This document shows positions 6,147 through 64,000 of a DNA stretch of 64,000 nt, piece after piece. The DNA is taken from positions 4,569,662-4,633,661 of the forward strand of contig OZ037770.1 in NCBI GenBank assembly GCA_964035545.1, read 5' to 3'. The stretch's first letter is position 1. Each line of letters starts with the position of its first letter. Origin of the DNA: Bugula neritina. Its lineage: Eukaryota > Bryozoa > Gymnolaemata > Cheilostomatida > Bugulidae. The notes under the pieces are model-generated. The model saw nothing but the letters and a program-made list of their open reading frames with translations. It did not search any database and was not told where the DNA came from. The position numbers and the translations under genes were made by a program.

Positions 6147-6151
6147 AATCC

Positions 6152-10537: not shown

Positions 10538-10791
10538 TGTGTTTAGTATTTATTATGAAATACGTTATTGATTGCTGATTTAACTTATCGAGCAAACTGA
10601 CTGACTGATGTAATTAATTGATAATAAAATATTTATTAGAATGAAAAACAGCGTGATGGTTTTGTATAATATAAAACGGAAGAGAGAGTAAACAAGTATA
10701 CAGCGATTCTAGTAAAGCAATTAGTTAGCATATTATCACGTGATTGTCATGAATGTGATTAGCGATAGGATCGCATGATTGTTTCTCAACA
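10520..10791 (-). repeat. Copia 5' LTR (contains the gag-pol start codon)
   Basis: 272 bp, the upstream LTR of the minus-strand element. The ATG of the polyprotein is at 10537-10535, 18 nt before the LTR end, so the first six residues (MATHST) are encoded by LTR sequence. Confidence 0.93.
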
Positions 10792-11837: not shown

Positions 11838-11912
11838 GATTATATATTGCCTTCATACTACATAACTAGCTGGATAGGGACAGTGATATCTATATAATTG
11901 TTATCTTGAATC

Positions 11913-13947: not shown

Positions 13948-14253
13948 TGTGGTGGCTCGTAGAGCTACCAGCAGCACAATACGCAAGGTTGCGCATTGAC
14001 CCGGAACGATGTATTAGCCAATTAGCTAAGCTGCTTATGAGTAACAGTAGCAGCTTCGCGCTACTAGCCCAGTTGAAGTTAGTGTAGTGAACTAAATAGA
14101 TGCGTGTATTTTTAACTGTTGTATAACAAACTTTATTATGTATCTTTGTACCTAAATATAACAATACCTACTCGACTTATCACGGTGAAGTCTCTCTAGC
14201 AGTAAACAGACTCTCTTGGTTGCACATCGACCCTAATTCTGGAAATTATAACA
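13948..14253 (+). repeat. Gypsy-1 5' LTR
   Basis: 306 bp. Two short hairpins are visible: one around ACGCAAGGTTGCG, and one where AGTAGC pairs with GCTACT across a CTTCGC-containing loop. The second is also present in the diverged LTR of Gypsy-2. Confidence 0.93.
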
Positions 14254-14254
14254 G

Positions 14255-14272
14255 TGGTGGCAGCGGTGGGAT
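14255..14272 (+). promoter_or_regulatory. Gypsy-1 primer binding site, tRNA-Leu
   Basis: One base after the LTR, TGGTGGCAGCGGTGGGAT is complementary to the 3' end of tRNA-Leu of the AAG/UAG type (ATCCCACCGCTGCCA plus CCA). The match covers 18 nt against the tRNA sequence as I recall it. Confidence 0.8.
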
Positions 14273-14286
14273 AGTGTACATCAAAG

Positions 14287-15155
14287 ATGGAGACTGAAAA
14301 TGCTAGAATGCAACCACCCCCAGTAGAAGGTGAGCGTAGAAATGATGTTAATCCTGTGAATCTTGAGGGAGAAGAAGCTTACAGATATTGCTTGAAAGCT
14401 CCCACCTTTACTGGGTCAGAAGATGTCGAACAGTTTATACAAGAATTTAGAGAGGTAATGGAGATTGCTCAATGGCCGCATAGAGTGGCCCTTATCCAAT
14501 TGTGGAGAGCGTTGACGGAGCAAGCCAAGCCGTACGGAGTGGGAACGGACATAAACGGGATACTGGCTGCGCTGCGGGCCCGTTTTGGCATCTCCGCAAT
14601 AGACGCTAGGACCAAGCTACAGAGATTGTGCCGCACCCCGCGGACCTCGCTGCAAGAACATGCCACAACGATGAAGAAGCTGGCACAGATTGCGTATGGT
14701 GATCTACCAGCACAACATCAAGAGCGTTACACATACGACGCCTTTGTCCAGTCACTAAACGACCTGGGCCTACACCATCAACTTCGAGCTAAAGGGATAA
14801 CCAGAATAGAGGATGCCCTGAAGGCTGGAGAAGCTTACCTGTTGGCTACCCAAATGCATCGAGCGCAACGGAACCCACCAGTAGTTGGAGTCAGTGCTGC
14901 CTGGGCTACGACAGGCCCCGAAGCCCCCCCCCGCTGGAAGCCGATGTGGACCGTATGGTAGAGATGCTGGGACAGCTGGTAACAATTCTGGCCGGCGTTG
15001 GCCCCGGTCAGGCCCTGCGATTGCCACCAACACCTGTGGGGCCGGGCTGGAGTAGTGCTGGTCAAGACCATGGACAGCAAGGACGACCCCAATACCAGGG
15101 GGCGTTAAACTGTCACGGCCCGCGGACGCTCTCCCTCCCCGCGGGCCGCAACTGA
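14287..15155 (+). pseudogene. Gypsy-1 gag, broken by a homopolymer frameshift
   Basis: The frame starts METENARMQPPPVEGERR, 14 nt after the primer site. It contains a retrotransposon gag domain (APTFTGSEDVEQFIQEFREV, then a helical region to about residue 200). A run of nine C near 14924-14932 shifts the frame, so this reading ends at 14961. The original frame resumes as DRMVEMLGQLVTILAG and ends with TGA at 15153-15155. No clear CCHC zinc knuckle is present; the expected place holds ALNCHGPRTLSLP, encoded by a strong stem-loop. Capsid/nucleocapsid role inferred from position and gag fold. Confidence 0.75.
15117..15147 (+). other. GC-rich stem-loop before the gag stop (Gypsy-1)
   Basis: GGCCCGCGG (15117-15125) pairs perfectly with CCGCGGGCC (15139-15147) around a 13-nt loop. 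An in-frame TGA follows at 15153. The same structure is at 43031-43061 in Gypsy-2. It could act in recoding or packaging; that is inference. Confidence 0.6.
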
Positions 15156-15453
15156 AGGGGTATGGTGGGACACGCCGTCATCTGTCCGTACGGACACGAC
15201 GGAACACTCCCCCCGAGTGGCAGGTACCACGCAGGACTAGTAGGCCCGCACAACGGCCCAGTACCTTCTCCCTGCCACTCGCCAACCGGTTTCACCGGTT
15301 ACCTCGGGAGGAAGAGCCCCCCACTGAAATGGAGCCGGAAGGCCCAGTGGAAAGCCCCAAACCCCGCCGGCACCAACCTCGCCGCCATAAACCCTGTAAA
15401 CCACGGGTGAAACCCCCGCCGTCCTACCAATCTAGGACAGCACATGCGGGGGG
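15156..15453 (+). other. Gag-pol linker of Gypsy-1 with shared stops
   Basis: The gag frame continues after the TGA (82 codons from the ATG at 15162, MVGHAVICPYGH...) to a second TGA at 15408-15410. A G-run before pol is seven bases long here and nine in Gypsy-2, which puts pol one frame off in this copy. The linker is proline- and glycine-rich with no domain I recognise. It could be translated by readthrough, or be partly intronic. Confidence 0.5.
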
Positions 15454-18400
15454 GTGAAAGTACAACCACATGGAGAGAGCTATTTCCTACCCGGAAAGGT
15501 GGCCGGCAACGCCGTCACTTTCCTGCTCGACTCCGGTTGTACTACCAACCTTCTCAGTCGTAAAGTCTTTGAGGCACTGCCCCGCCGGGACAAGGATAGA
15601 GTACGACCGTATACGGGGGAACATGGCACCCTGGCAGACGGGTCACGTATTCCTTTCTACGGTATTATCGAGCTCCCTGGGCGTGTCCGAGACCAGGCTG
15701 TACAGGAGACCTTTGTCATAAGCCAACTGAAGGAAGATGCTATCCTCAGAATGCCCTTCTTGAAGCAACACCAGTGCCGAATAGACTTTAGCAAATTGGT
15801 GGTGCTGATGGGCGGGCGAGAACTTGCCTGTATGGATAAGTTTGGGCGTCCTCTGGTGGGCGGTGTTCAGGTAGTTCGAAACTGCACCGTGCCCGGACGC
15901 TCCAGAGCTACTATCCACTGCCGAGTGAACAGCAACCGGATAGCCAGGCTCAGGGTTGTTGAAGGCGCGCACGAAAGGATCCAACTTGCCAGTAGTTTAA
16001 ACCGACTAACTGAGCGAGGGGAGATCTTAGTGCAGTGTGTCAACCCCTTTACCGAGCCCATTGAGCTCCCAGCTGGGTCAATGGTGGGCTGGTTTCACTC
16101 CATCCAGGAAGAGGATGTGGGCCCGTCGCTGGGTGACGCGACGGAGGCACCCCTTCGACACCCTATTCAGGGACGAGGGGCGGTCCCAACACATCTCCGG
16201 GAGTTATATGAAACAGCCTGTGGCGGCTGCGCGAGTAACAAGGAACACCAAGCTATGGCGAAGTTGCTACGCGACTACGGTGATGTGTTCAGCAGCGGAG
16301 ATCATGACGTGGGGCTGACTGGAGTTGTCAGACACGAAATACCGCTGACTGCAGGGACAGTCCCTGTCCGGCAACCCACACGCAGACTGGGGCCGAAAAA
16401 AGAGAAGGAGGTTAGCCGACAAGTACGGGATGTTCTGGACCGCGGCCTCATAGAGCCCGCCCATAGTGCGTGGAGGTCACCGGTCGTACTGGTCCGGAAG
16501 AAAGACGGCAGTTGGCGGTTCTGTGTGGATTACCGCAAACTCAATAACGTAACCATACAGGACGCCTACCCTCTACCTCGTATTGACGAGTCATTGGACG
16601 CCCTAGTCGGCAGCAAGTACTTCAGTACGTTAGACTTGCTGAGTGGTTATTGGCAAGTCCCTCTGAGTCCCGACGCCCAGGAGAAAGCGGCGTTTATCAC
16701 ACGGGACGGGTTGTGGAAGTGGAAAGTGCTGCCCTTCGGGTTAACCTCCGCCCCAGCCACCTTCCAGAGGCTGATGGAGCAAGTCCTTAGCGGGCTCCAT
16801 TGGAAGACACTGCTGGTCTACCTCGATGATGTCATCGTGATCTCCCCAGACTTCGAGACGCATGTCAGTCGTCTGCAGGAGGTCTTTGAGAGACTCCGAG
16901 GTGCCGGTCTCAAGCTCAAACCTTCCAAGTGCGCTCTATTGCAGCCAGAGGTTAAGTACCTGGGGCATGTTGTCGGTCGAAACGGCGTGGCAACGGATCC
17001 CGAGAAGGTACGGGCAATAGAAGACTGGGTCACCCCCCAAGACTTGACCGGACTCCGGGCTTTCTTGGGGCTGGTAGGGTATTACAGGCAATACATACCA
17101 GACTTTGCGGGCATAGCACAGCCGTTAAATCGGCTCACCGCAAAGGGAGTGACGTGGCAGTGGACCCCAGTCGAACAAGGAGCGTTCGACCGCCTCAAGG
17201 TCTGCCTACTAACGGCGCCCATCTTGGCCTACCCAGACCCCACTCTAGCGTACATCCTCGACACTGATGCCAGTGACCAAAATGTTGGCGCTGTGCTGTC
17301 ACAATTGCAGGCATGCTGAGAGGTAGTAGTAGCCTACTACAGTAAGTCTCTCTCACCCGCTGAACGAAATTACTGCACTACCCGCAAGGAGTTGCTGGCA
17401 GTAATCAAGTCAGTGAAGCACTTCAGACCATACTTATACGGCAGGAAGTTCCGGCTGCGTACGGATCATGCCTCGCTGATCTGGTTGTGCAAGAGAGCAG
17501 AGCCCTCCAGTCAGGTCGCCCGGTGGCTCAAAATCCTAGCTGAATTCTCGTACCAGATCGAACACCGACCGGGCAAGAGACACAGCAATGCGGATGGTTT
17601 GAGCCGCCGACCTGATGGAGGTTGCAAACAGTGTCTCAACATCGAGAGGAGGGATGGAGGTCCCCCGCGATGCGAGTTGGAGACGCTGGTTCATCACGGA
17701 GCACCGTTTGACTGGGACCAGGGTCAACTCAGACAGGAGGTTGACGAGTTCCCCGAGGTTGTACAAAACCTCCGCGCCAACCCTGTACTGGCCGATAATG
17801 TCCGAGAGCTGAAGAAGCTCCAAGAAGAGCTGCCTGGAGTCGTGGCAGACATATATCGGGCCAAAAGGGAAGGGCGACGACCCAGCATGGAACGCATACG
17901 ACAGGGATGCGCCGAGTTCCGGCTATACTGTCAGCGTTGGGACTCGCTGCGGATCGGGCAGGATGGTTTACTGACCATCTCTCTAGCCGCCAACAGCAGA
18001 CATCCAGAGAGGAAGAGGGTAGTCTGCCCCACGGCCATCCGCCGTGAGTTGATTTGGGATACTCACAAACAGGCCCACGCAGGGGTCAAGAGAGTGATCT
18101 CCAATTTATGACTCCGGTGGTATTGGCCACAAATGGAGCGGGACGTCCGACTCAGAGTCAAACAGTGTGAGATCTGCCAGGCCAGTAAGCATGGCCGTCT
18201 CCCTGGTGAAGCGGGACGGCGGAGGCTATATGCTGGAAGGCCCTGGCAAGTAGTCGCTGTAGACCTGGTCGGACCCATGCCCCTGACCCCCAGAGGCAAT
18301 AGTTGGATCTTAGTACTGACCGACCACTTTACTAGGTAGGCGGATGCTCTGGCTATCCCAGATGCGTCAGCCCCAACAGTGGCCAGGGTACTAGACCAAC

Positions 18401-19731
18401 ATGTATTCTGTTATTTCGGTCTCCCCGAACAGATACACTCTGATCAAGGCGCTCAGTTCCAGTCTCAACTGATGAGCGACCTTCGCCACCTCTGGGGAGT
18501 AAATCAGAGCCGGACCACCCCCTACCACCCTCAAGGTAACGGGGTGGTGAAGCGCAATAACCGGATGCTAGGTGATGCGCTCCGGAGTCTCCTCCTTGGA
18601 CGCGGCCAAGGGGAATGGGATACGGTGTTGTCGCAAGTCATGCGTGCATACCCTAGCACCCCACACACCAGTACTGGTGAGACCCCAAACCTCTTGATGC
18701 TCGGGAGAGAGACCTGGGTTCCTGACCATCTTACCTACCACGTTCCAGAGCAAGACAACTCGGTTCATGAGTATGCCAGTGAACTAGTGGAACGGATGAA
18801 GGCCGCACACGATATACTGCGCGAACAGCAGTGGAAGGTGCGACATGAAGATTCCGAGGAACTACCTCTCTACCAAACGACAGATAAGGTGTGGATGGTC
18901 AATTACCGTAGGCGTCGCGGGCAGGCTGACAAATTAAAACCTAAGTTCGTGGGACCCTACGTGATTGTCGAGGCTATGCCCAACCATACGTACAAGATTG
19001 AGCGCTCAGGACAGGTGTCTATCCAGAATGAGTCTTGCTTGAAGCCGTATTGGGCTAGCCCCGACGCAGTGGAAGAAGCCCCCCCGTTGTTGGAGCCCAG
19101 GAGGCAGACAACAACATGCGGGCGACGGCGGCATGGACCTGAATATGAAGTGGTCATACCGCGGGAAGAAAACTTGGTGAGAGAAGAAAGACAGCTTTTA
19201 CCAACAGAAGCATGTCCGCCGCCGCCAAGACTAATTCCATCACTTCCAGAAACCGAGCCGGTTCCGGAAGTGCAAGCCCCCACGGAGGGAGGGGCTCCAT
19301 CCGGAGAACAAGAAGAAGTGACCGCTAACGGTGAAGTAGAGACGCCATTAGAGGCCCCTACTAATAAACCAGGAAGCGTGTCACCCCCCCCCCTAGAACG
19401 GGGACAACGTACGAGGAAACCCCCACCATATTTAAAAGACTTCGTATGTGACTGCATTAAAAGCGGCACGCATGAAAGTCTAGGGGAAAACCGTACGATA
19501 AAATGTTGGAGTTGTGAACCCCACGCAAATATCAACTTTTGCGAGGGCAGAATAGTGGGAGGAATTAATGCGCGTAAAGCAAATAGTTCCGACCTCGTGC
19601 CTCAGAAACGATGCTCAGCCTTTTCTTACGCTGACATCGCCAAAGGCAGACGTATCTCACAACCAGCTCCAATCTTACCAAGAACGTTGAGTATGGACAT
19701 TAATACCGAGTTCACAGGTAAGCCAGTATAA
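15454..19731 (+). pseudogene. Gypsy-1 pol (PR-RT-RH-IN) with three nonsense codons
   Basis: Domains in order are protease (FLLDSGCTTN), reverse transcriptase (LVYLDDVIV), RNase H (intact DTDAS at 17260-17274) and integrase. Integrase has the HHCC zinc region, VDLVGP and HSDQGAQF. Stops interrupt the frame at 17317-17319 (TGA), 18109-18111 (TGA) and 18337-18339 (TAG). The third catalytic residue of integrase is Lys (AAG, 18550-18552), where Gypsy-2 has Glu. The C-terminal tail has a proline-rich segment, a cysteine-rich patch (CDC, CWSC, NFC) and the AFSYADIAKGRR motif, ending near INTEF. ORF3 begins 17 nt after its stop. Confidence 0.9.
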
Positions 19732-19770
19732 GTCTTGTATTCCTATCCATGGAAACGGGCTCGATGCCAG
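19718..19770 (+). other. Candidate 53-nt mini-intron at the pol/ORF3 junction (Gypsy-1)
   Basis: The segment starts GTAAGCC after ...TTCACAG and ends GATGCCAG. Removing it deletes the pol stop (19729-19731) and the ORF3 ATG. It would join pol (codons ...ATT AAT ACC GAG TTC ACA G) in frame to TA AAT TCT GAA of ORF3. Gypsy-2 has the same 53-nt segment, and the distant Gypsy-3 a 52-nt one with the same donor start and phase. Confidence 0.55.
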
Positions 19771-20822
19771 TAAATTCTGAACTAATTCATCAGATTGAAT
19801 CAGAATTACTGGGAACCACGTTTCACGTGAATGACGACGAGGACACTGTAATGGCTGACGGTCTGTTAGACCTGGAGCTAGACACTATTCTTGGTCAGTC
19901 CACACATGATTCACTGGTTCCTCGAGTGCATTCTAAAAGTTGTAACTCTCAGGCTAGTAACAGTCGACAGTCACTAGAATTATGTTGTAAAGATCCACCG
20001 CGATCTAACAATAATTCTACTTTTGTAGACACACTCACGCCCGTCTCTCCGGGCATGCCTTCTTTAGAGATGGCGTGGGACCCAGAGCCGGCCCCACCAA
20101 CTTCCACAACCAGACAACTGCCACCCCAGTTAGAAGCAACCTCTAACTGGACCATCCCTGCCACAGAGAAAGAGATTAAGACTCATAGAGGAGATGACAG
20201 TAACCGCGAATGCCGCCTATGTCAGCAGCGGTTTACAACCCATCGTAGGCTGAGAGTCCACCTGCCACAGCATTACATCACAACGTTCTGCCCCTGCGGG
20301 GAATATAGTTACAATCGTGATTATCTACTGCGTCACCAACGCACTATGCAGTGTTTTCAAGGACACGTCTATGAAGTAGACGAATCATCATATCCCGCAT
20401 TCCTTAACGCCATCAGACCCCTCATCACCGACCCAGCTCGACTGTCTCGCCTGGAGCAAGGCTTTCCCTCCCCTCGACCCATCATCTCGGAAACCATGGA
20501 TAAGCCTACAAAGTCAGCTAACTCCCCACCTCTCAGTCCTATACGCCAACCGCATGCACTTCCCCGTGTCGTACTACAGAGGGTAGACACGAAGGCGTAT
20601 ACACTCCCTCCCCCACTTCCATCTTCAGAACGGAAAAGGCACAGGCAGCAGACTTTCTCTCGCTCATCCCCTCTGGCCCGCAACTTACGAGAAATAGAAG
20701 CTAGGGCACACGACCTGGAGCAAGAAGTATATAGACTGGCCCCACGCGTGCATGCTGCATCCAGTGAACTCAGGTATCTACAGGAGTCTATCAAACGCAT
20801 GGGGCGGGCGGCCCACGGTTAA
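19749..20822 (+). CDS. Gypsy-1 ORF3: zinc-finger/coiled-coil accessory protein, 357 aa
   Basis: Intact frame between pol and the 3' LTR. An acidic N-terminal segment is at about residues 25-45 (HVNDDEDTVMADGLLDLELD), followed by LELCCKDPPRSNNNS. A canonical C2H2 finger (C-X2-C-X12-H-X3-H, CRLCQQRF...VHLPQH) lies near residues 154-175. It is followed directly by a C-X-C-X12-H-X5-C finger (FCPCGEYSYNRDYLLRH) near 180-205. A proline-rich region leads to a C-terminal coiled coil (NLREIEARAHDLEQEVYRL). There is no signal peptide or membrane segment, so it is not an envelope protein despite its position. Function unknown; nucleic-acid binding is an inference. Its own ATG (METGSMP) lies inside the candidate intron, so spliced RNA would instead fuse the core to pol. 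Confidence 0.85.
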   Translation: METGSMPVNSELIHQIESELLGTTFHVNDDEDTVMADGLLDLELDTILGQSTHDSLVPRVHSKSCNSQASNSRQSLELCCKDPPRSNNNSTFVDTLTPVSPGMPSLEMAWDPEPAPPTSTTRQLPPQLEATSNWTIPATEKEIKTHRGDDSNRECRLCQQRFTTHRRLRVHLPQHYITTFCPCGEYSYNRDYLLRHQRTMQCFQGHVYEVDESSYPAFLNAIRPLITDPARLSRLEQGFPSPRPIISETMDKPTKSANSPPLSPIRQPHALPRVVLQRVDTKAYTLPPPLPSSERKRHRQQTFSRSSPLARNLREIEARAHDLEQEVYRLAPRVHAASSELRYLQESIKRMGRAAHG

Positions 20823-21091
20823 CATGAGTCCATCTCCAACTCCATACCACTCCTCCTCTACCTCTCTGTGGCATTCCCTACCAGTACGGTGGCACGTACT
20901 CTACATGTAAATAGGACTTATTACATACCTTGTATCATCCATTGTGCATATTTTTTTATATACATGTATATCTAATCAATTGGCTCTTGTATATACTTTT
21001 ATATTGTTCTCTCTCAGCCCACCGATGTATAAGTTTTTTTTATGTGAATTATATTTTTATCAGAAAGAGGGCTTTCTGCTGGAGGGGGCAG
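20823..21091 (+). other. Gypsy-1 3' untranslated region and polypurine tract
   Basis: AT-rich leader to the 3' LTR. It ends CTTTCTGCTGGAGGGGGCAG at 21072-21091; the GGAGGGGGCAG part is the polypurine tract directly before the LTR. The same tract ends at 48997 in Gypsy-2. Confidence 0.75.
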
Positions 21092-21397
21092 TGTGGTGGC
21101 TCGTAGAGCTACCAGCAGCACAATACGCAAGGTTGCGCATTGACCCGGAACGATGTATTAGCCAATTAGCTAGGCTGCTTATGAGTAACAGTAGCAGCTT
21201 CGCGCTACTAGCCCAGTTGAAGTTAGTGTAGTGAACTAAATAGATGCGTGTATTTTTAACTGTTGTATAACAAACTTTATTATGTATCTTTGTATCTAAA
21301 TATAACAATACCTACTCGACTTATCACGGTGAAGTCTCTCTAGCAGTAAACAGACTCTCTTGGTTGCACATCGACCCTAATTCTGGAAATTATAACA
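21092..21397 (+). repeat. Gypsy-1 3' LTR
   Basis: 306 bp. It differs from the 5' LTR at two positions by eye (CTAAG/CTAGG and TACC/TATC). Followed by the ATAG target duplication. Confidence 0.93.
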
Positions 21398-21401
21398 ATA
21401 G

Positions 21402-23036
21402 CAAATAAATACTTTACTTCCATAGGAACAACGTTATTAAAGAAATTTACTGACGACAATTTTGATTTTACAGAAGTCAGATAAAAAACTTGATGAACAG
21501 TTTAGCTTCACAAATATTGAAAGCACAGTCATTGAAAGCTTACTTAAAAATGTAAACCCAGCCAAAGCTGCAGGATTAGATTTAGCTCCCACCAACCTAA
21601 TAAAAATATCTGCATCTCATCTTTCAAAACCTTTAGCTTACATTATAAACACAATTATCAATGATGGCGCTTTTCCAAATGAACTAAAAAAAGCTAAAGT
21701 TGTTCCTCTACACAAAACAGGCATAGCTACTGATGTAAGTAATTACCGCCCAATTTCTATATTACCTGCTTTCAGTAAGATAGCTGAAAATATTTTAAAT
21801 AGTAAGCAAATAGTAGATTTTCTAGAAAGCAAAAATTATTTAACTGATAAGCAGTACGGCTTTAGACGAAATAGAAACACAAATATTGCCTTAATTAATC
21901 TAACAAATAAGGTTTTAAATGCCATGAACAATGGTAATTCTGTAGCGGGAATTTTCCTCGATTTTAGTAAGGCCTTTGACACAATAAATCATGAAATCTT
22001 ATTAGCTAAATTAAAAATGCTCCACTTTTCAAGTCACAGTGTGAAGCTAATTAAAAATTATCTGTCCAATCGTCAACAGTCTACTATTATTAACAACACA
22101 TATTCTGACTTTATTCATATCACATGTGGAGTACCACAAGGATCCATACTTGGTCCCACACTATTCCTAATTTATATAAATGATCTTCCAGATGTAACTA
22201 TGCATTTAGACCCTATATTATTTGCCGACGATACGAACCTCTTCTTTGAATCAAAAAATCTATTAAACAATATGGACATCATAAACTGTGAATTAAAGAA
22301 AATAGAAAATTTGTGCAATAAAAATAAATTAACTGTAAACATGAGTAAAACAAACTATATGATAATCAAAACAGCGCAAAATAAACAAGATTTAAATGGC
22401 TTTGCCTTAGAAATGTTTAACAAAAAATTAGTGGAGGTAAAATCAACTACCTTCTTAGGTATTATAATAGATTCACATCTTTCTTGGCAACAACATTGCA
22501 GCAAACTTTGTCAAAACCTAAAGCCCTTAGTAGGCTTGATAAGTAAATGTTCCAATCACCTACCTAGAACAATTCTAATACAAATATATAACTCTTTTGT
22601 AAATTCTAAACTAACATATTGCCTAGAATCGTGGGGTAATGCAGCAAACATTTATCTTGAACCACTACATTTACTACACAAAAAAATACTGAGAATTATA
22701 TATAAAAAGCATCACCTTTCCCCATCTAAACCACTGTTTCTTAGTTCTTCAATCATGCCTATTCACCCTCTACACAAATTCAAACTAATACTGCTCTCAC
22801 ATAAACTTTACTGCTCTCAACTATTACATATCACACATAACTATCCCACAAGATTTTCAGAGTTCAGCCTACAAACTCCTCCATCATCAACTGCTGCAGG
22901 TCAACAAAGAGTGGAATTCCAATGTTCGTCGCTTTGGAATAAATTGCTTAGTTCTATTCGTGCTGTGGGGAGGGAGGCTGGTTTCAAACTTGCCTTGAGA
23001 GACCATCTAATGACAAATTTCCAGATAAAAAAATAA
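21402..23036 (+). pseudogene. LINE-B ORF2, reverse transcriptase half
   Basis: Sequence right of the gypsy insertion continues the interrupted ORF2 linker. One base shift near 21475 precedes a long open stretch (21462-23036, 524 codons). Reverse transcriptase blocks are clear: SNYRPISILP, KQYGFRRNRNT, FLDFSKAFDTI, CGVPQGSILGP and the catalytic FADDTN. The C-terminal region (TYCLESWG..., YPTRFSEF, FQCSSLWNKL) is typical of jockey/CR1-like LINEs. The RT part itself has no stop, so the insertion and the small upstream lesions are what disable it. Confidence 0.85.
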
Positions 23037-31704: not shown

Positions 31705-33125
31705 TACTGGACAAGTCAAAATCTGAGTGCAAATTAAACTTGTTTTACAAAACAATGTTGTGGGAGAATCTAATGTCAGCTGTCAAGTGTGGTTACTGCA
31801 GAGTGTGTTGTACTGTGGACAGTAAACTTCTAACACTCAGTTTGATTGGCTTAACAGGAGTGTCTGGTCAGTTACTTACAACAAACCGGACACTGTGTAA
31901 CATATTAATATAACACTGAAGTAAAGATTTACACTATAATCTAATTATAATATTATTTGCCTACATCAGTCTTGGTATATTTAGCTCCCTTCCAAGGACT
32001 GCATTGTGCAAACGATTTTCTCATTGATGCATGGGGACAAATCCATTCAAACGGTTCTATCAAATGAAAATGATGCGAAGCTGATTTATGTATCGATGCC
32101 CTTTAACCTTTTGGTGCGAAGCCTTTCAATCAAGTCGGATAAACTCTTTTGTCGCAGAGGCAGAGATCGGTAATCGTACTGGCTCTAGTTACATAGTTAC
32201 AAGATGTAAGCAATAAAATTCTCCAACTACGACTAAAAACTAAAATGTTATTTCACAACCAATTTGAACAAATTATTTCATGTATTTTAGCTGCCATTAT
32301 TTTAAATAATTATTTATTACTGTAAATCTTTGTTATTTTTCTGTAATGTAAAGAATTAAACTTCCAATGACTAAAACAAGCCAACGGCTAGTTTCAAAGT
32401 AAGCTTCATTCTGAAAACTGTTAGTAAGCCTTCATAATTTTATGCACCATGAAAAGTAAGGCATTCATCTGTTAAAACCTCTATAGTTTAAAAAAAAGTT
32501 TGACGCAATGAATTTAATTTGGCAAAAACCAAGATAGAGTGAGTGGCGTAAAGTACCATGAAGTAGTAGCACTGACTCGATATTAGCCATATTATCTATC
32601 GGCAATATGCCGCCGCAGGAGTGCGTGTTTTGCTGGCAAAATTATTGGGCTGAATAGTCTTAGAGCACATCATTTCAAGAAAAGACAACTTCATACGGAT
32701 TACCCGCAGTATTGTGCTCCTTTTATTCTGTTTAACCCGGGCAGGAATATTTGTGAAAAGGTAGTTAGTCTGCTGTAAAAGCTTAATATAAATTAAAAAT
32801 AAAATTTCATTGCAGCAACTTGGATATATGACTATGAAGTTATATGCACCTACATGTCAACTGAAAGTTTTATTTTTGTGTTTAATAACAACTTTTGGAA
32901 ATTCATGGTGTCTTTAAAATAATTACAACATAAATTTTGTGCATCAGTTTGAAATTGCTTGTTTTTAATCCTAAATGTTAGCTATATTCTAAAATCAGTG
33001 TCAAGAATGGTGGTGTCATCACTGCATGCAAGAAATGCTGTTTCATTGATTTCTGTTTAATTTTGATATTTTATGCTATTATGTGATGAAGCCTCAGAGT
33101 TTAACTGTTAGTGCACCAACTGTGA
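31705..33125. other. Spacer between PRODH and RPF1
   Basis: Presumed PRODH upstream region (to its left on the minus strand). A GC-richer patch near 32585-32650 includes ATGCCGCCGCAGGAGTG, but no sizable frame follows. No gene recognised. Confidence 0.45.
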
Positions 33126-33254
33126 GTACTACTACTACTACTACTACTACTACTACCACTACTACTACTACTGCTACTACTACCACTACCACTACTACTA
33201 CTACTACTGCTACTGCTGCTACTACTACTACTACTACTATTACTGCTACTGCTG

Positions 33255-33324
<70 letters not shown>

Positions 33325-33425
33325 CACTACCACTACTACTACTACTACTACTACTAATAGTACTAGTACTACTGCTTCTACTACTACTCTGATTACAGCC
33401 ACTATGACTACTGCTACTACCACCA
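33126..33425. repeat. ACT trinucleotide microsatellite, about 300 bp
   Basis: Nearly uninterrupted ACT units with sparse GCT, ACC and ATT variants. Both strands are open through it (poly-Thr on plus, poly-Val on minus) only because the repeat lacks stops in those frames. It lies just downstream of the RPF1 stop. Confidence 0.95.
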
Positions 33426-33551
33426 GATCAAAATTGTCATTGACACATTGTTCAATACAAGACTAAAGAAATGAATTACTCAAATTTATGAAATAATATT
33501 TTATTTTGGTTCACTTTGCATAGAGAAAATATAAATACTAATGAAATGGGT

Positions 33552-43357: not shown

Positions 43358-46300
43358 ATGCGGGGGGGGGTGAAAGTACAACCACATGGAGAGAGCTATT
43401 TACTACCCGGAAAGGTGGCCGGCAACGCCGTCACTTTCCTGCTCGACTCCGGTTGTACTACCAACCTTCTCAGCCGTAGAGTCTTTGAGGCACTGCCCCG
43501 CCGGGACAGGGATAGAGTACGACCGTATACTGGAGAACATGGCACCCTGGCAGACGGGTCATGTATCCCCTTTTATGGTATTATCGAGCTCCCTGGGCGT
43601 GTCCGAGATCAGGCTGTACAGGAGACCTTTATCATAGGTCAACTGGAGGAAGATGCTATCCTCGGCATGCCCTTCTTGAAGCAACACCAGTGTCGAATAG
43701 ATTTTAGTAAGTCGGTGGTGCTGATGGGCGGGCGAGAACTCGCCTGTGTGGATAAGTTTGGGCGTCCTCTGGTGGGCAGTGTTCAGGTAGTTCGGAACTG
43801 CACCGTACCCGGACGCTCCAGAGCAACTATCCACTGCCGAGTGAACAGCAACCGGATAGCCAGGCTCGGGGTCGTTGAAAGCGCGCACGAAAAGATCCAA
43901 CTCGCCAGTAGTTTAAACAGACTAACTGAGCGAGGGGAGGTCTTAGTGCAGTGCGTCAACCCCTTTACCGAGCCCATTGAGCTCCCAGCTGGGTCAATGC
44001 TGGGCCGGTTCCATTCCGTCCAGGAAGAGGACGTGGGCCCGTCGCTGGGTGACGCGACGGAGGCACCCCCTCGACACCCTATTCAGGGACGAGGGGCAGT
44101 CCCGACACATCTCCGGGAGTTATACGAAACAGCCAGTGGCGGCTGCGCGAGTAACAGAGAACGCCAAGCTATGGCCAAGTTACTACGCGACTACGGTGAT
44201 GTGTTCAGCAGCGGGGAGAATGACGTGGGACTGACTGGAATTGTCAGACACGAAATACCGCTGACTGCAGGGACAGTCCCTGTCCGGCAGCCCACGCGCA
44301 GGCTGGGGCCGGAGAAGGAGAAGGAGGTTAGCCGACAAGTACGGGATCTTCTGGACCGGGGACTGATAGAGCCCGCCCATAGTGCGTGGAGCTCGCCAGT
44401 CGTACTGGTCCGGAAGAAAGACGGCAGTTGGCGGTTCTGTGTGGACTACCGCAAACTCAATAGCGTAACCATACAGGACGCCTACCCTCTACCTCGTATT
44501 GACGAGTCATTGGACGCCCTAGCCGGCAGCAAGTACTTCAGTACGTTAGACTTGCTAAGCGGCTATTGGCAGGTTCCTCTGAGTCCCGACGCCCAAGAGA
44601 AAGCGGCGTTTATTACACGGGACGGTTTGTGGAAGTGGAAGGTGCTGCCCTTCGGGTTAACCTCCGCCCCAGCCACCTTCCAGAGGCTGATGGAACAAGT
44701 CCATAGCGGACTCCATTGGAAGACACTGCTGGTCTACCTCGATGATGTCATCGTAATCTCTCCAGACTTCGAAACACATGTCAGTCGTCTGCAGGAGGTT
44801 TTCGAGAGACTCCGAGGTGCCGGTCTTAAGCTCAAACCTTCCAAGTGCGCTCTGTTGCAGCCGGAGGTCAAGTACCTGGGGCACGTTGTCGGTCGAAACG
44901 GCGTGGCAACGGATCCCGAAAAGGTACGGGCAGTAGAAGACTGGGTCACCCCTCAAGACTTGACCGGACTCCGGGCTTTCTTGGGGCTGGTAGGGTATTA
45001 CAGGCAATACATACCAGACTTTGCGGGCATAGCCCAGCCGTTAAACCGGCTTACCGCAAAGGGAGTGACGTGGCAGTGGACTCCAGTCGAACAAGAAGCG
45101 TTCGACCGCCTCAAGGGCTGCCTCCTAACGGCGCCCATCTTGGCCTACCCAGACCCCACTCTGGAGTACATCCTAGACACAGGTGCCAGTGACCAGAATG
45201 TTGGCGCTGTGCTGTCGCAAGTGCAGGAAGGCCGAGAAGTAGTAGTAGCCTACTACAGCAAGTCTCTCTCTCCCGCTGAACGAAATTACTGCACTACCCG
45301 CAAGGAGCTGCTGGCAGTAATCAAGTCAGTGAAGCACTTCAGACCATACCTATATGGCAGGAAGTTCCGGCTGCGTACGGATCATGCCTCGCTGATCTGG
45401 TTGTGCAGGAGAGCAGAGCCCTCCAGTCAGGTCGCCCGGTGGCTCGAAATCCTAGCTGAATTCTCGTACCGGATCGAACACCGACCGGGCAAGAGACACA
45501 GCAATGCGGATGGGTTGAGTCGCCGACCTGACGGAGGTTGCAAACAGTGTCTCAACATCGAGAGGAGGGATGGAGGTCCCCCACGATGCGAGTTGGAGAC
45601 GCTGGCTCCTCACGGAGCACCGTTTGACTGGGATCAAGGTCAACTCAGGCAAAGAGTTGATGAGTCCCCGGAGGATGTACAAAACCTCCGCGCCAACCCT
45701 GTACTGGCCGGTAATGTTCGAGAGCTGAAGAAGCTCCAAGAAGAGCTGCCGGGAGTCGTGGCAGACATCTACCGGGCCAAAAGGGAAGGGCGACGACCCA
45801 GCGAGGAACGCATATGACAGGGATGCGCCGAGTTCCGGCTATACTGTCAGCGTTGGGACTCGCTGCGGATCGGGCAGGATGGGTTGCTAACCATCTCTCT
45901 AGCTGCCAGTGGCAGACACCCGGAAAGGAAGAGGGTAGTCTGCTCCACAGCCATCCGCCGTGAGTTGATTTGGGATACTCACAAGCAGGCCCACGCAGGG
46001 GTCAAGCGAGTGATATCCAAATTACGACTCCGGTGGTATTGGCCGCAGATGGAGCGTGACGTCCGGCTCAGAGTCAAACAGTGTGAGATCTGCCAGGCCA
46101 GTAAGCATAGCCGCCCCCCTGGTGAACCAGGAAGGCGGAGGCTATATGCTGGTAGGCCCTGGCAAGTAGTCGCTGTAGACCTGGTCGGACCCATGCCCCT
46201 GACCCCCAGAGGCAATAATTGGATCCTAGTACTAACCGACCACTTTACTAGGTGGGCGGATGCTCTGGCTATCCCAGATGCATCAGCCCCAACAGTGGCC

Positions 46301-47644
46301 AGGGCACTAGACCAACATGTATTCTGTTATTTTGGGCTTCCCGAACAGATACACTCTGATCAAGGCGCTCAATTCCAGTCTCAACTGATGAGCGACCTTT
46401 GCCACCTCTGGGGAGTAAATCAGAGCAGGACCACCCCCTACCACCCTCAAGGTAACGGGGTGGTGGAGCGCAACAACCGGATGCTAGGTGATGCGCTCCG
46501 GAGTCTCCTCCTTGGACGAGGTCAAGAGGAATGGGATACGGTGTTGCCGCAAGTCATGCGTGCATACCGTAGCACCCCACACACCAGTACTGGTGAGACC
46601 CCAAACCTCTTGATGCTCGGGAGAGAGACTCGTGTCCCTGACCATCTCACCTATCACGTTCCAGAGCAGGATAACTCAGTCCATGAGTATGCCAGTGAAC
46701 TAGTGGAACGGATGAAGGCCGCACACGAGATACTGCGTCAACAGCAGTGGAAGGTGCGGCACGAAGATTCCGATGAACCACCCCTCTATCAAAGAGGAGA
46801 TAAGGTGTGGATGGTCAATTACCGTAGGCGCCGCGGACAGGCTGATAAGCTGAAGCCTAAGTTCGTAGGCCCCTACGTGGTCGTCGAGGCTATGTCCAAT
46901 CATACGTACAAGATTGAGCGCTCAGGACAGGTGTCTATCCAGAATGAGTCTCGCTTAAAACCGTATTGGGCTAGCCCTGACGGAGTGGGAGAAGCCCCCC
47001 CGTTGTTAGAGCCCAGGAGGCAAACAACGACGCGCGGGCGACGGCGGCATGGACCTGAATACGAAGTGGTCATACCGCGGGAGGAAAACTTGGTGAGAGA
47101 GGAGCGGCAGCTTTTGTTAACAGAAGCGTGTCCGCCACCGCCAAGTCTAATTCCATCACTTCCAGAAACCGAGCCGGTTCCGGAAGTGCAAACCCCCACG
47201 GAGGGAGGGGCTCCATCCGGAGAACAAGAAGAGGTGACCACTAACGGTGAAGTAGAGACACCATTAGAGGCCCCTACTAACGAACCGGCAAGCGTGTCAC
47301 CCCCCCTAGAAAGGGGACAGCGTACGAGGAAGCCCCCACCGTATTTGAAAGACTTCATATGTGACTGCATTAGAAGCGGCGCACATGAAAGTCTAGGGGA
47401 AAACCGTACGATAAAATGTTGGAGTTGTGAACCCCACGCAAATATCAACTTTTGCGAGGGCGGAATAGTGGGAGGAATTAATGCGCGTAAAGCAAATAGT
47501 TCCGACCTCGTGCCTCAGAAACGATGCTCAGCCTTTTCTTATGCTGACATCGCCAAAGGCAGACGTATCTCACAACCAGCTCCAACCTTACCAAGAACGT
47601 TGAGTATGGACATTAATACCGAGTTCCCAGGTAAGCCAGTATAA
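43358..47644 (+). pseudogene. Gypsy-2 pol (PR-RT-RH-IN) with one nonsense codon
   Basis: Protease DSG is at residue 30, and reverse transcriptase YLDD near residue 460. RNase H has its first catalytic motif changed from DTDAS to DTGAS (45182-45184). The frame breaks at TGA 45815-45817, where Gypsy-1 has CGA, then continues to 47644. Integrase has its zinc region, VDLVGP, HSDQGAQF and an intact catalytic Glu (GAG 46466-46468). The C-terminal tail matches Gypsy-1 (CWSCEPHANINFC, AFSYADIAKGRR, MDINTEFP). With one stop and a mutated RNase H, this copy is probably not autonomous. Confidence 0.9.
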
Positions 47645-47683
47645 GTCTTGTATTCCTATTCATGGAAACGGGCTCGATGCCAG
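47631..47683 (+). other. Candidate 53-nt mini-intron at the pol/ORF3 junction (Gypsy-2)
   Basis: GTAAGCC...GATGCCAG follows GAGTTCCCAG. Removal joins CCA G to TA AAT, fusing pol to ORF3 in frame and skipping the pol TAA at 47642-47644 and the ORF3 ATG at 47662. Confidence 0.55.
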
Positions 47684-48735
47684 TAAATTCTGAACTAATT
47701 CAGCAGATTGAATCAGAATTACTGGGAACCACGTTTCATGTGAATGACGATGAAGACACTGTAATGGCCGACGGTCTGTTAGACCTGGAGCTAGACACTG
47801 TTCTTGGTCAGTCCACACATGATTCATCAGTTCCTCGAGTGCATTCCAAAAGCTGTGACTCTCAGGCTAGCAACGGTCGACAGTCACTAGAATTATGTTG
47901 TAAAGATCCACCGCGATCTAACAATAATTCTACTTTTGTAGACACACTCGCGCCCGTCTCTACGGACATGCCTTCTCTAGAGATGGCATGGGACCCAGAG
48001 CCGGCCCCAACAACTCCTACCACCAGGCAACTGCCACCCCAGTTGGAAGCAACCTCCAACTGGATTACCCCTGCCACAGAGAGAGAAATCAGGACCCATC
48101 AAGGAGGTGAGAGTAATCGTGAATGCAACCTCTGCCAGCAGCGATTCACAACCCACCGCAGACTAAAGGTGCACTTGCCGCAGCACTACATCACCACTTT
48201 CCGCCTTTGCGGAGAATATAGCTATAATCGTGATTACCTACTGCGGCACCAACGTACTATGCAGTGCTATCAAGGACATGTCTATGAAGTAGACGAATCA
48301 TCATATCCTGCCTTTCTCAACGCCATCAAACCACTCATCACTGACTCAGCTCGGCTATCTCGCCTGGAGCAAGGCTTCCCTTCCCCGCGACCCATCATCT
48401 CTGGAGCCGCAGATAAACCTACACAGTCTGCTAACTCTCCACCTCACAGTCCTATACGCATGCCGCATACCTTTCCTCGTGTCGTACTACAGAGAGTAGA
48501 CACAAATGCGTATACACTCCCTCCTCCTCTTCCATCCTCAGAGCGGAAACGACACAGGCAGCCAACTTCCTCTCGCTCGTCCCCCTGGGCCCGTAACCTA
48601 CGTGAGGTAGAAGCTAGGGCGCATGACTTGGAGCAAGAAGTGTACAGGCTGGCCCCACGGATACAGGCAGCCTCCAGTGAACTCAAATATTTACAGGAGT
48701 CGATTAAACGCATGAAGCGTGCGGCCCGCAGTTAA
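47662..48735 (+). CDS. Gypsy-2 ORF3: zinc-finger/coiled-coil accessory protein, 357 aa
   Basis: Same length and layout as the Gypsy-1 ORF3, with roughly one residue in ten changed by eye and no indel. The first C2H2 finger is intact (CNLCQQRFTTHRRLKVHLPQH). The second has lost its first Cys (FRLCGEY instead of FCPCGEY). The acidic segment, LELCCKDPPRSNNNS block and C-terminal coiled coil (NLREVEARAHDLEQEVYRL) are kept. An open frame of equal length in two copies whose pol genes carry stops suggests coding constraint. Confidence 0.85.
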   Translation: METGSMPVNSELIQQIESELLGTTFHVNDDEDTVMADGLLDLELDTVLGQSTHDSSVPRVHSKSCDSQASNGRQSLELCCKDPPRSNNNSTFVDTLAPVSTDMPSLEMAWDPEPAPTTPTTRQLPPQLEATSNWITPATEREIRTHQGGESNRECNLCQQRFTTHRRLKVHLPQHYITTFRLCGEYSYNRDYLLRHQRTMQCYQGHVYEVDESSYPAFLNAIKPLITDSARLSRLEQGFPSPRPIISGAADKPTQSANSPPHSPIRMPHTFPRVVLQRVDTNAYTLPPPLPSSERKRHRQPTSSRSSPWARNLREVEARAHDLEQEVYRLAPRIQAASSELKYLQESIKRMKRAARS

Positions 48736-59200: not shown

Positions 59201-60729
59201 CGTGTAAATAATACAGTTTAATGGCATGCCATTGTATATCCTTATATCACAGAACTTTTCATAATCAATAATAAAACAGCCATCTGTAGTTTACTGGCAA
59301 TCATGGTAATAATTGAATCTTTCTTAGCTTCTTGCATCAATCACTTTGATTATCCATTACTCGAATGAATTTATTTTCTGCATTTTTTACCTGGTTGACT
59401 GTGCTTAGCAATATTATATGTACAGTGTCTATTTTTATGACACAGTAGACTACATATATCATACACTTTATATTACAGTCTGTGTCAGCTGACTCAGTTA
59501 GAGAAACTAGACATAGGAGAGAATCCTCTCAACACAGTACCTGAAGTTGTTTCATCACTCACATCACTTAAAAAGTTGAATATGAAGAGATGTAAATTAT
59601 CTACTTTACCTGAGAGGTTTGTGTGTTGCACTATTTCTTCTGTCTTAAACATTCAATATTTAACATATTTAATGCTTATTAAGTAGTGTTATGCAATGTC
59701 ATCATGTATTGCAAACATATGTTGAAAAACCTAAATATGCATTTCTGAAGTTATTTAATAGCTTGTCCTAACGTAGAAATAATACCGTTTAATGGTATGC
59801 CATTGTATATATCCTTGTATATCACAGAATTTTTTATAATTAATTAATAATTAATAATAAAACAGCCATCTGCAGTTTACTGGCAATCATAGCAATAATT
59901 GAATCTGTCTTAGCTTCTTGCATCAATCACTTCGACTATCCATTACTGCAATGAATTTGTTTTCTGCATTTTTCCCTGGTTGACAGCGCCTTAAGCAATA
60001 TAGTCTATACAGTGTATATCATTATCACACAGTAGACTACATATATCTTACCCTTTATGATTATTGCAGTCTATGTCAGCTGACTCAGTTAGAGAAACTA
60101 GACATAAGAGATAATCCTCTCAACACAGTACCTGAAGTTGTGTCATCACTCACATCACTTCAGGAGTTGGATTTGGAGAGCTGTGAATTATCTAATCTAC
60201 CTGAGAGGTTTGTGGAGTTTTTTAATATTTCAAACATTCAATAATTCACATTTTGATATAATGCTTACCAAGTATTGTTGGTTAGTATACCATTATGTAC
60301 CATTAAAAGGGTAAAGCTATAGATTGTAATTTGCTTGAGATTATATTGTATTATGGTTTCTCGTAACTTGCAAATGAACATGTTTTATTCATTTGGCATT
60401 ACATACTCTAATGGTATAAACCTTCGTTTACAAATAATATAGCATCCACTCGTAATTTACTAGTATCTATTTCCCATTAAATGCTTATTAGCTTTCTGTA
60501 TTTTACTTTGAATATACCTTGTCGGAATAAATTTGTATATAATATTATCCTGAACGAGTTGATTACATATATCATGTACTTTTTATTACAGTCTATGTCA
60601 GCTGACTCAGCTAGAGAAACTAAACATAGGATTGAATTCTCTCAACACAGTACCAGAAGTTGTGTCATCATTCACATCACTTAAAGAGTTGCATATGATG
60701 GGCTGTAAAATATCTAATCTACCTGAGAG
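56256..60729 (+). CDS. Leucine-rich-repeat gene, 5' part with tandem LRR exons
   Basis: Candidate first exons 56256-56298 (MSNLLVQPPTGGSL) and 57916-57928 (MATA) both end in phase 1. Both could splice to exon 58362-58593, which encodes KMKIWFRHSGQPPVDWSDVL... and a domain I do not recognise. Three 138-bp exons follow (59479-59616, 60070-60207, 60592-60729), all phase 2 to 2. Each carries two 23-residue LRRs (LCQLTQLEKLDIGENPLNTV, then PEVVSSLTSLKKLNMKRCKL and similar). The style resembles sponge LRR proteins related to MFHAS1/Roco or NLR-like receptors. All splice sites are GT-AG and no stops are present. The 3' part is missing because Gypsy-3 lies just downstream and the window ends. The cytoplasmic LRR receptor role is only a family guess. 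Confidence 0.7.
56363..56544. repeat. 18-bp minisatellite, about ten copies
   Basis: The unit ACTAATATTCTACCTTAC repeats in tandem with small variants (TAGTCTACC, CAATCTACC, TAGTCTAGC). The last three copies share the TAGTCTAGC variant, showing local spread. It lies just downstream of the first candidate exon of the LRR gene. Confidence 0.95.
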
Positions 60730-60976
60730 GTTTGTTCGTCACAATACTCTTTCTGTTTCAAAAAGTCAATCACTCACATCTTTACATGCTTGTCAATTAT
60801 TGCTAGAGTATATAATCCTACATTGTTATATTCAACGGCCTTTCGATTTTTTTCTAGTAGTTTTTCACATCCTGTGAATAACCCAGTTTCATGGCATGAG
60901 ATTGTATGTTATTATGCCACAAGAACTTTTTGTAATTTATGACAAAACAGCCATCTATAGTTTACTGGCAATCATG
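59140..60976 (+). repeat. Triplicated exon-intron unit of the LRR gene
   Basis: The LRR exons and parts of their introns repeat. Phrases such as AACCTAAATATGCAT, AATAGCTTGTCCTAACGT and CAGCCATCTGTAGTTTACTG recur at about 59150-59310, 59730-59890 and, in part, 60890-60976, with a spacing of roughly 520-590 bp. The array arose by tandem duplication of an exon plus its flanking intron. The last unit is cut at 60976 by Gypsy-3. Confidence 0.85.
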
Positions 60977-61565: not shown

Positions 61566-62685
61566 TCAGTCTTGGTCGCCCCGTTTGAGGAGGGCCACCG
61601 AAGCTTTGAGAGTCTTCATCTCGGAGGCGGCTGCGGCAACTCTGGGGGTTAACCGTTGAATCTCAGCTTCTAAGTCATACATACGGAGCTCGACTTCTTT
61701 TATATTGCGAGCTGTGGGAGCCTGCCGTTTTGGGGAGGAGGGATGCCAGCAGCGTTTTTGAAGAGGGTTGTATAGAAGTGGGAGTGGGGGAACGTCATTT
61801 CCGAGGTATCTCGACTCTGTGGAGTAGGAGTCGAGGTAGGGTGGAGGGACGAGGTATAGTCTGTGCTGGAGGAGAGTGAGGTGACTTGGTAGGTTTCTTG
61901 TGTCTAGGGGGTCTTGGGCACGGTCCATGAGTGATGATGCGAGGGGAGGGGAATCCTTGTTTGAGTCGTTCAAAGCGGGGGAGATCCTTAATGAAAGGCT
62001 TGATCAGATTGAGAAAGGTGGGGAAGTTGTACTGGTCAACATCATACAGATGTCCCACATGGCAGTCCATAGTGCGCTGATGTTTGAGGATGTAGTCCCT
62101 GTGGTAACTACATTCACCACAGGGACAGAGAGTAGTTAGGAAGTGTTGCGGTACGTGGACGCGCAAACGGCGATGGGTGGAGAAGTGCTGCTGACACAGC
62201 CTGCAGGTGGTGCATTCGTCATGGCCGCGGTGTAGTTGAATCTGTTTTTCTGTGTCTGGTGCGACCCAGCTATGTTGTTGAAGTAGCACGTCTGGTAGGG
62301 ATGTAGGAGGTGTCTCACCGTTCCAGGCCAGTTCTAATGGTGGCATGTCTCCGTAGTTAGGAGAGCGAGTGGCGTCTAAAAGAGCAGAATTATTGTTAGA
62401 TCGAGTTTGATCTTTACAGCATAATTCTGATGACAATCGACTGTTAATAGTCTGAGAGTCATGCATCTTTTTATACGGCACTCGAGAGACTGTGTCAGAA
62501 CGTGTAAACTGACTGAGAGACATAGTATCAAGCTCCAGATCTAGTAGATCGTCCGCCATTACTATGTCCTCGTCGTCATTCACGTGTGACTCTGTCTCCA
62601 GTAACTGTGATTCAATCAGATCGATTAAATCAGAGTTGACTGAGGTGAGATCTATTTCCATTAGTGGAGTGTTAGATCTAAGCAA
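61566..62685 (-). pseudogene. Gypsy-3 ORF3 with one frameshift
   Basis: Homologue of the ORF3 of the other two copies. It has VNSDLIDLIESQLLETESHV, NDDEDIVMADDLLDLELDT, an SELCCKD...RSNNNS block and an intact C2H2 finger (CRLCQQHFSTHRRLRVHVPQH). The C2HC-like finger (LCPCGECSYHRDYILKH) is also intact. A shift near 61800-61815 separates this from the coiled-coil end (NIKEVELRMYDLEAEIQRLT), which stops at 61566. Both fingers and the acidic segment are kept across the subfamily split, marking them as the functional core. Confidence 0.8.
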
Positions 62686-62691
62686 GCTTAC
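62640..62691 (-). other. Candidate 52-nt mini-intron at the pol/ORF3 junction (Gypsy-3)
   Basis: On the minus strand GAGTTCCCAG|GTAAGC opens the segment and CTCACCTCAG|TCAACTCTG closes it. The interior differs from that of Gypsy-1/-2, but the first six bases and the splice phase are the same. The flanking peptides MSINTEFP and VNSDLI correspond to MDINTEFP and VNSELI. Confidence 0.55.
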
Positions 62692-64000
62692 CTGGGAACT
62701 CGGTATTTATACTCATACTCGACGTTCAAGATTGGATGTGGATGGATTAAAAAGCACGTCTACTCTTGACCGCGTCGGCGTAGGAAAAGGCTGGGCAGAG
62801 TGTTTGTTGTGCGAGACCGGAACTATGTGCCCGGAGAGTGGTAATTCCACTCGCTATTCCGTTTTCGCAAAACTTGGTTTTTCCGTTGTGTTCATAACTC
62901 CCACGCTTTGCTGCCAGTCTTTCCGTACGGCGCCCAGCTGGACTTTCATACCTGCCGCTTGTAATGCGGTCGCGTACAAAGTCTTGGAGATAAGCTGGGG
63001 GTCTTCTAGTACGTTGTCCCCTTTCAAGGAGGGGGGAGATGTACTAGTGGTAGACACCGGGGAAGGTGGTGTAGCTGGTGAGGGAGGTGGTGTAGCTGGT
63101 GAGGGAGGTGGTGTACTCACCAGTGGGTTGTTATTTTCCACTGGTGGTGTTTCCTGCCTCCCGTCAGCCGTTATTCTTTCTTCCCCTCTGTTTTCTCCGG
63201 ATGGAGCCCCTCCCGTGTGGAGTTTTGCACTTCCGGAAGTATACTCATTTCCGGAAGTGGTGGTGGTAGCCCTGGGGTCAGACGGCTTGGTTCTGGAGGC
63301 AGAGGGTGTGGCCCCGTTGGGGGAGGTGGCCTCTCTTGCCTTGCCAAGTCTTCCGTCCGTGGCATGACCCACTCATCATTGGGTTTATGCCGCCGCCGCC
63401 CGCGCATCGTTGTCTGCCTCCTGGGCTCTAACAATGGGGGGCACCCCCGGCCGCACCTGGGCTAGCCCAATAGGGTTTCAAGCGGGCTTCATTCTGGACA
63501 GATATTTGTCCAGACCGCTCCAACTTGTAAGTGTGATTGGGCATCACCTCAACTACCACGTAGAGCTCTACAAACTTAGGCTGTAGTTTAGCCGCCTGTC
63601 CTCGACGCCTACGGTAGTTGATCATCCAAACCCAGTCTCCGGTCTGGTAGAGGGGTGGCTCATCAGCGTCTTCCTGTCACACCTGCCACTGCTTATCCCG
63701 CAGTATTTCGTGTGCGACTTTCAGACGCTCTATCAATTCCCCAGCCTACTCGTGGACAGAGTATTCTGGCTCTGGAATATGATAGGCGAGGTGGTCGGGC
63801 ACTCGTGTCTCACGACCGAGTGTCAAGAGGTTGGGGGTCTCGCCGGTGCTGGTATGTGGCGTGCTGCGGTAGGCCCGCATGACCTGCGGCAACACGAGAT
63901 TCCACTCCTCCTGGCCTCGGCCGAGTAGTAGACTGCGGAGTGCATGCCCTGCATCCGGTTGTTGCGTTCGACCACTCCGTTACCCTGAGGGTGGTATGGA
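62692..64000 (-). pseudogene. Gypsy-3 pol, integrase and C-terminal tail, decayed
   Basis: From the window end leftwards: PYHPQGNGVVERNNRM (catalytic Glu present), then shifts and stops. Next come DEPPLYQTGDWVWMINYRRR, PNHTYKLERSGQISVQNEAR, LEPRRQTTMRGRRRH and a proline-rich stretch with a short tandem repeat (PPPSPAT). A diverged version of the AFSYAD..KSRR tail runs up to MSINTEFP. At least three frameshifts and several stop codons are visible. Confidence 0.8.

Follow-up and report, generated by a model that had tools for sequence, protein, structure and literature searches.

A conserved GT-AG segment between pol and ORF3 in Ty3/Gypsy elements of Bugula neritina: a possible two-start translation leader

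The DNA analysed here, a 64,000 nt stretch of Bugula neritina contig OZ037770.1 (the window), contains two Ty3/Gypsy long terminal repeat (LTR) retrotransposons, Gypsy-1 and Gypsy-2, assigned by their terminal repeats and the order of their pol domains, and a distant relative, Gypsy-3, on the minus strand. Our subject is a short GT-AG segment at the point where pol meets a third gene, ORF3. The LTRs are spaced about 7.1 kb apart, and 300 nt direct repeats were found at 13946 and 21090 in Gypsy-1 (99% alike) and at 41852 and 48985 in Gypsy-2 (98% alike). Protease, reverse transcriptase (RT), RNase H and integrase are present in that order (Pfam). The pol of Gypsy-2 consists of a protease–RT–RNase H part (43358–45817, plus strand) and an integrase part (45884–47644, plus strand), whose frame runs on through a start codon, ATG1, into the GT-AG segment. 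An in-frame stop between the RNase H and integrase parts interrupts this pol frame (43358–47644), and the pol of Gypsy-1 is broken elsewhere. From its own start codon, ATG2, ORF3 occupies 47662–48735 in Gypsy-2 and 19749–20822 in Gypsy-1 (both plus strand, 357 amino acids). That of Gypsy-3, read from ATG2 at 61795–62661 on the minus strand, is shorter at its end than the other two; the mechanically called open reading frame there is 61795–62685.

The ORF3 protein of Gypsy-1 and Gypsy-2 has a weak C2H2-like region (zf-C2H2, 16.1 bits against a Pfam cut-off of 25.2) and, in a structure model of modest confidence (pLDDT 61), a long C-terminal helix. A Foldseek search with this fold gave nothing at E below 0.001, the matches to the fingers of ZBTB7A and Kaiso being not significant (best E 1.9). 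Pfam at E values up to 1 returned no Env family for ORF3, only the C2H2-like region and unrelated matches.

The segment is 53 nt long in Gypsy-2 (47631–47683, plus) and Gypsy-1 (19718–19770, plus) and 52 nt in Gypsy-3 (62640–62691, minus), and in all three it begins GTAAGC and ends CAG, as the sequence-only reading of this DNA had said. That reading had also noted that excision would keep the phase and join INTEF(P/T) to VNS(E/D)LI, which was borne out: one codon base precedes the GT in each element. It had placed the pol stop and the ORF3 ATG inside the segment in Gypsy-1 and Gypsy-2, correctly, but the limitation to those two does not hold, as the Gypsy-3 segment likewise contains a stop of the upstream frame and an ATG. 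Immediately before the GT lies a 25 nt stretch headed by ATG1, which occupies 47606–47630 in Gypsy-2 (plus; MDINTEFP and one base), 19693–19717 in Gypsy-1 (plus) and 62692–62716 in Gypsy-3 (minus; MSINTEFP and one base).

In the 216 Mb genome the family has well over a hundred copies in many diverged subfamilies. One junction pattern matched 126 places, and a search with ORF3 gave 1120 candidates, of which 107 were scored. We compared 100 fetched junctions from the same genome, of which two DNA searches supplied 60 and a selection from the ORF3 matches the other 40. They represent 47 distinct forms of the stretch from ATG1 to the AG; the sample is skewed towards near-identical young copies, and the closest relatives of Gypsy-1 lie outside it. 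Each junction was parsed by locating AGTATG, a GTRAG no more than 40 nt further on and, after that, an exon start that was only loosely specified but had to end in G; the parser failed on none of the 100, and free alignments agree with it. Substitutions were counted on a tree of 90 distinct sequences.

The same order was found in all 100 junctions: ATG1, eight codons without a stop, GT, 52–56 nt, and the acceptor. The donor was GTRAG throughout, with GTGAGC in two copies (L050 and L088), and the acceptor was YAG in all except L090, which comes from a copy with several stops. Phase was kept in every junction, with segment lengths of 52, 53 or 56 nt. Thus the alignment of genomic copies that the sequence-only reading had proposed as a check found GT, AG and phase retained together in 99 of 100. 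Of the 126 pattern matches, 100 were listed and inspected by eye. These all had GT and AG, though the G of AG, like the base preceding GT, was prescribed by the search pattern; one had GTAAC in place of GTAAG, segments of 54 nt and 41 nt occurred once each, and three places had lost the ATG.

On the tree, donor columns +1 to +6 changed only twice, both times between A and G at +3 with the consensus kept, against a mean per column of 2.2 changes in the segment interior and 2.5 in the Pol tail. Among 334 six-column windows nearby, six were as quiet as the donor (itself counted), three of them on ATG1 and two in ORF3. Of 337 two-column windows, 25 were as quiet as the GT pair. Because 54 of 337 were as quiet as the AG pair, conservation of the acceptor is unremarkable by itself. 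Between one Gypsy-2 copy (L001) and six diverged copies, identity at four-fold sites over ORF3 has fallen to 0.32–0.44. Near the junction, on both sides, it is 0.54–0.68, compared with 0.20–0.31 deeper in ORF3, and the block from −36 to +5 (0.67) shows roughly the invariance of integrase-coding DNA (0.60). The whole neighbourhood therefore evolves slowly, which weakens any claim based on conservation. The GT-AG segment is real and old; its removal by splicing is hypothetical.

When the 50 codons before the GT were inspected, the Pol frame was stopped before ATG1 in 65 of the 100 junctions. It was open in 35: 33 close Gypsy-2 copies (L001–L030, L094, L098 and L099), L078, and L100, whose fetched sequence was too short to judge. 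The Gypsy-1 of the window is open too. In Gypsy-3 the Pol frame is stopped at 62749–62747 and again further on, the first stop being common to the fetched Gypsy-3 subfamily and the second to most other fetched subfamilies. Shifted frames were seen in L050–L053 and L091–L093. Since upstream stops are shared within and between subfamilies, most of them do not reflect the decay of single copies. Contrary to the sequence-only reading, INTEF is thus not the end of Pol in Gypsy-3; Pol has stopped earlier there, and INTEF is headed by its own ATG (62716–62714). Because the shared stops lie upstream in most copies, the putative donor exon is best described as an ATG-headed stretch that the Pol frame overlaps by happenstance in one lineage.

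Both start codons are strongly retained. ATG1 was present 25 nt before the GT in 100 of 100 junctions (the parser required AGTATG, and none failed), GAGTATG underwent no change on the tree, and there is an A at −3 of ATG1. No stop intervenes between ATG1 and the GT in any junction, and the short frame that ATG1 opens ends 11–17 nt before ATG2 in 97 of 100. The exceptions are L040 and L090, which have lost ATG2, and L093, whose short frame runs past it. In 98 of 100 junctions ATG2 is in frame, and ATG1 lies 55–56 nt upstream of it in nearly all copies. Among 41 metagenome relatives of the ORF3 protein, 20 had an N-terminus that could be matched, and 19 of these begin M-E; since any predicted protein begins with a start codon, the weight rests on the E and the residues after it. 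Twelve candidate relatives of the pol tail among metagenome proteins were not significant, and none of six pattern matches in viral contigs was confirmed. In two copies (L091:48-139:- and L092:243-334:+) both start sites read ATGGAAAC and both N-termini would begin M-E-T, which may be due to local copying or chance.

Folding of the alignment and of single sequences placed a hairpin in the segment, at 47644–47674 (plus) in Gypsy-2, with an outer stem of five pairs and, adjoining ATG2, an inner stem of UUCC/GGAA. ORF3 codons 4–5 are the pairing partner of the arm located where the short frame ends. Over 49 distinct sequences, 84.9% of hairpin cells pair, against a shuffled mean of 81.9%, and sliding the partners drops the paired fraction to 58% or less. 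In three of the outer pairs both partners have changed (GC to AU, AU to GC and UA to CG). Such changes occupy 30 cells at these 3 pairs, compared with a shuffled mean of 3.7 cells, and none of 500 shuffles reached 30. The evidence for the hairpin is suggestive only.

Our tentative preference, at somewhat less than even confidence, is that the segment is a two-start translation leader of ORF3, the third gene behind pol in a Ty3/Gypsy element, and no device for fusing it to Pol. It is built on features seen directly in the copies, namely the conserved ATG1, its short frame, ATG2, the hairpin pairing and the upstream Pol stops. ORF3 would normally be made from unspliced RNA, starting at ATG2. ATG1 would open a short frame with its stop at, or inside, the left arm of the hairpin, the inner stem of which abuts ATG2, and ATG1, short frame and hairpin together would set the rate at which ribosomes arrive at ATG2, through either leaky scanning or reinitiation. 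That ORF3 is translated from ATG2, and that ATG1 and the hairpin control this, are the predicted parts of the proposal. A number of points weigh against it. The retention of AG|GTRAGC is left unexplained, as is the in-phase YAG kept 53 nt further on. A stop 11–17 nt before ATG2 is tight for ordinary reinitiation, and the position of that stop is not fixed among copies. As for the hairpin, the number of pairs with changes on both sides (3) was matched by 228 of 500 shuffles and the number of pair types (11) by 380 of 500, the covariation can be traced to a small number of lineage splits, the very sequences used for the test had also served to derive the structure, and one abundant clade (L057, L059, L061, L062 and their kin) has a disrupted outer stem.

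The strongest competitor is an ultra-short spliceosomal intron in the 5′ end of ORF3, with no Pol fusion intended, which we consider rather unlikely. Spliced RNA would start at ATG1 (M-x-x-N-T-x-F-x-VNS...) and unspliced RNA at ATG2 (MET...VNS...), giving two N-termini. This would explain the kept donor, acceptor and phase better than a leader does: GTRAG, phase and the stop-free run from ATG1 to the GT are universal in the fetched junctions, YAG nearly so, the interior and its length vary, and the donor changes only between A and G at +3. The changes at −3 to −1 resemble those that a U1 site tolerates. Junction residues fit NYA|G in 20 of 20 matched metagenome relatives, although these are related to one another and so count for little; the spliced N-terminus occurs in none of those 20 proteins, which are predictions from contigs. 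ATG2, which splicing would remove, is strongly kept within the segment, and the hairpin lies there as well.

The size of host introns also bears on this. Exon positions in genes for chaperonin, myosin and dynein gave length estimates for 145 introns (76, and a further 69 from dynein). The median was 308 nt; eight estimates fell below 100 nt and a single one below 70 nt. That one (59 nt) proved in the DNA to be a 110 nt intron with a good pyrimidine tract, leaving about 77 nt as the smallest credible estimate. Three further chaperonin introns measured in the DNA were 81, 83 and 109 nt, near their estimates where one existed. Hits that spanned an intron were left uncounted; their excess lengths were 54 (part of the same 110 nt intron), 78 (the 81 nt intron), 132, 180 and 213, and an excess of 24, seen twice in the dynein set, probably reflects alignment insertions. 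At 52–56 nt the segment therefore lies below the host range, and because none of the 69 dynein introns or the three further chaperonin introns came near 53 nt, the leader model gains some weight and the intron loses some. Size alone does not exclude an intron, since human introns of 37–65 nt are documented, some of which have splice or branch sites of low efficiency (PMC4463651). These resemble the segment in size, and some of them have no good acceptor or branch site, but unlike it the introns chosen in that work are backed by transcripts.

The sequence before the AG is only 35–47% pyrimidine in all 11 sequences checked, with no polypyrimidine tract. By eye, a CTAAC branch-like site is present in many subfamilies and absent from Gypsy-1, Gypsy-2 and others; CTAAY was not found in Gypsy-1, Gypsy-2, L058, L072 or L095. 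If full-length RNA were spliced at a few percent, intron-less genomic copies should exist. Zero-mismatch patterns, which do not cover copies with diverged flanks and one of which was run without its own positive control, found no exactly intron-less copy, against 126 places with the segment; one match with a 7 nt gap (C2:7212969) is not an exact splice. Such an intron would therefore have to escape splicing in the RNA that is reverse transcribed. Splicing of the segment is thus possible but doubtful. Of the earlier proposal of a selected mini-intron with kept ends and a diverged interior, the kept ends and the variable interior stand, in sequence and in length, and support for splicing as such is weak. 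The fuller version, in which an intron of 52–56 nt, below every host intron sampled, carries an alternative start and a hairpin so that its retention or removal picks the N-terminus of ORF3, is slightly less probable still. If it were true, such an intron would have been held while four-fold sites in ORF3 diverged between deep lineages to the extent given above.

It is distinctly improbable that the donor is real and the acceptor a different one, so that the short exon of ATG1 is spliced into or past ORF3. The donor is indeed better conserved than the acceptor of the segment, and pyrimidine-rich YAG sites occur in ORF3 or 3′ of it, for example at about +911 and +1300 in Gypsy-1, but no distal site is shared in position by all of the 11 scanned sequences, and many of the sites fall in Pro/Ser-rich coding sequence that is pyrimidine rich anyway. 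We give equally little credence to coincidence, that is, an ordinary junction of two open reading frames whose conservation has nothing to do with splicing or ATG1. The slow four-fold sites on both sides and the similarity of the −36 to +5 block to integrase-coding DNA speak for it; the donor and ATG1 are still among the least-changed windows locally, and most of the interior is not. The sequence-only reading itself, in which splicing regulates a Pol–ORF3 fusion, fits the close Gypsy-2 lineage and the Gypsy-1 of the window, where the Pol frame enters the donor exon in phase, but we rejected it as a design of the family and regard it as very improbable, because Pol is closed upstream in 65 of 100 copies, Gypsy-3 included, which is every fetched copy outside the close Gypsy-2 lineage except L078 and the unjudged L100, and the RNA for such a fusion would be the one reverse transcribed, yet exactly spliced copies number 0 against 126 unspliced. 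The case shows why a comparison with relatives should come before any fusion protein is proposed from a frame-compatible GT-AG pair.

Arrangements of this kind have partial parallels. Insect errantiviruses such as gypsy and ZAM have a third open reading frame after pol, as here, and express env from a spliced RNA with a distant donor; unlike theirs, the ORF3 described here matches no Env family in Pfam. In retroelement and pararetrovirus leaders a short open reading frame ends beside a hairpin before the main start codon, as the leader model would have it, but the leader here would lie between pol and the third gene and not at the 5′ end of the RNA. The closest system in position and in its expression problem is Cer1 of C. 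elegans, a Ty3/Gypsy element that makes a non-env protein, CERV, from the env position through a five-exon spliced mRNA; CERV is needed to export unspliced RNA, and the genomic RNA must stay unspliced for packaging (PMC10309623). In contrast to Cer1, the present family has a single candidate intron, of 53 nt and predicted from sequence, and the likeness drawn here is one of position and expression problem. Titles and the opening lines of abstracts yielded no Gypsy element with the present arrangement, which says little. For few LTR elements, Cer1 among them, is it understood how a single RNA can serve a third gene while the copy to be packaged stays unspliced. The present family, with its many diverged subfamilies and more than a hundred copies in the same genome, would let a straightforward RNA or reporter assay decide between a leader and a tiny intron.

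Other features of the window were noted. Gypsy-1 is apparently nested in a non-LTR retrotransposon (11910–23036), with a weakly endonuclease-like frame below the Pfam cut-off before it (12945–14087) and an RT frame after it (21462–23036). A complete-looking Copia element (6150–10791, minus) is probably a recent insertion, because its 274 nt direct repeats are 100% alike and it has a single gag-pol frame of 1368 amino acids. At 33050–33466 there is a run of direct repeats with step lengths of 9, 12 and 15 nt, with frames open on both strands and no Pfam match for 33059–33457, and diverged direct repeats of 130–153 nt, spaced about 520–590 nt apart, occupy 59258–60736.

Chaperonin, myosin and dynein genes on small contigs of the genome (C35, C71, C90, C113, C114, C115, C139, C149, C176, C186, C195 and C211) were found to read through many TAA and TAG codons and hardly any TGA. 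Because of this pattern, these small contigs look like contamination from a ciliate that reads TAA and TAG as glutamine.
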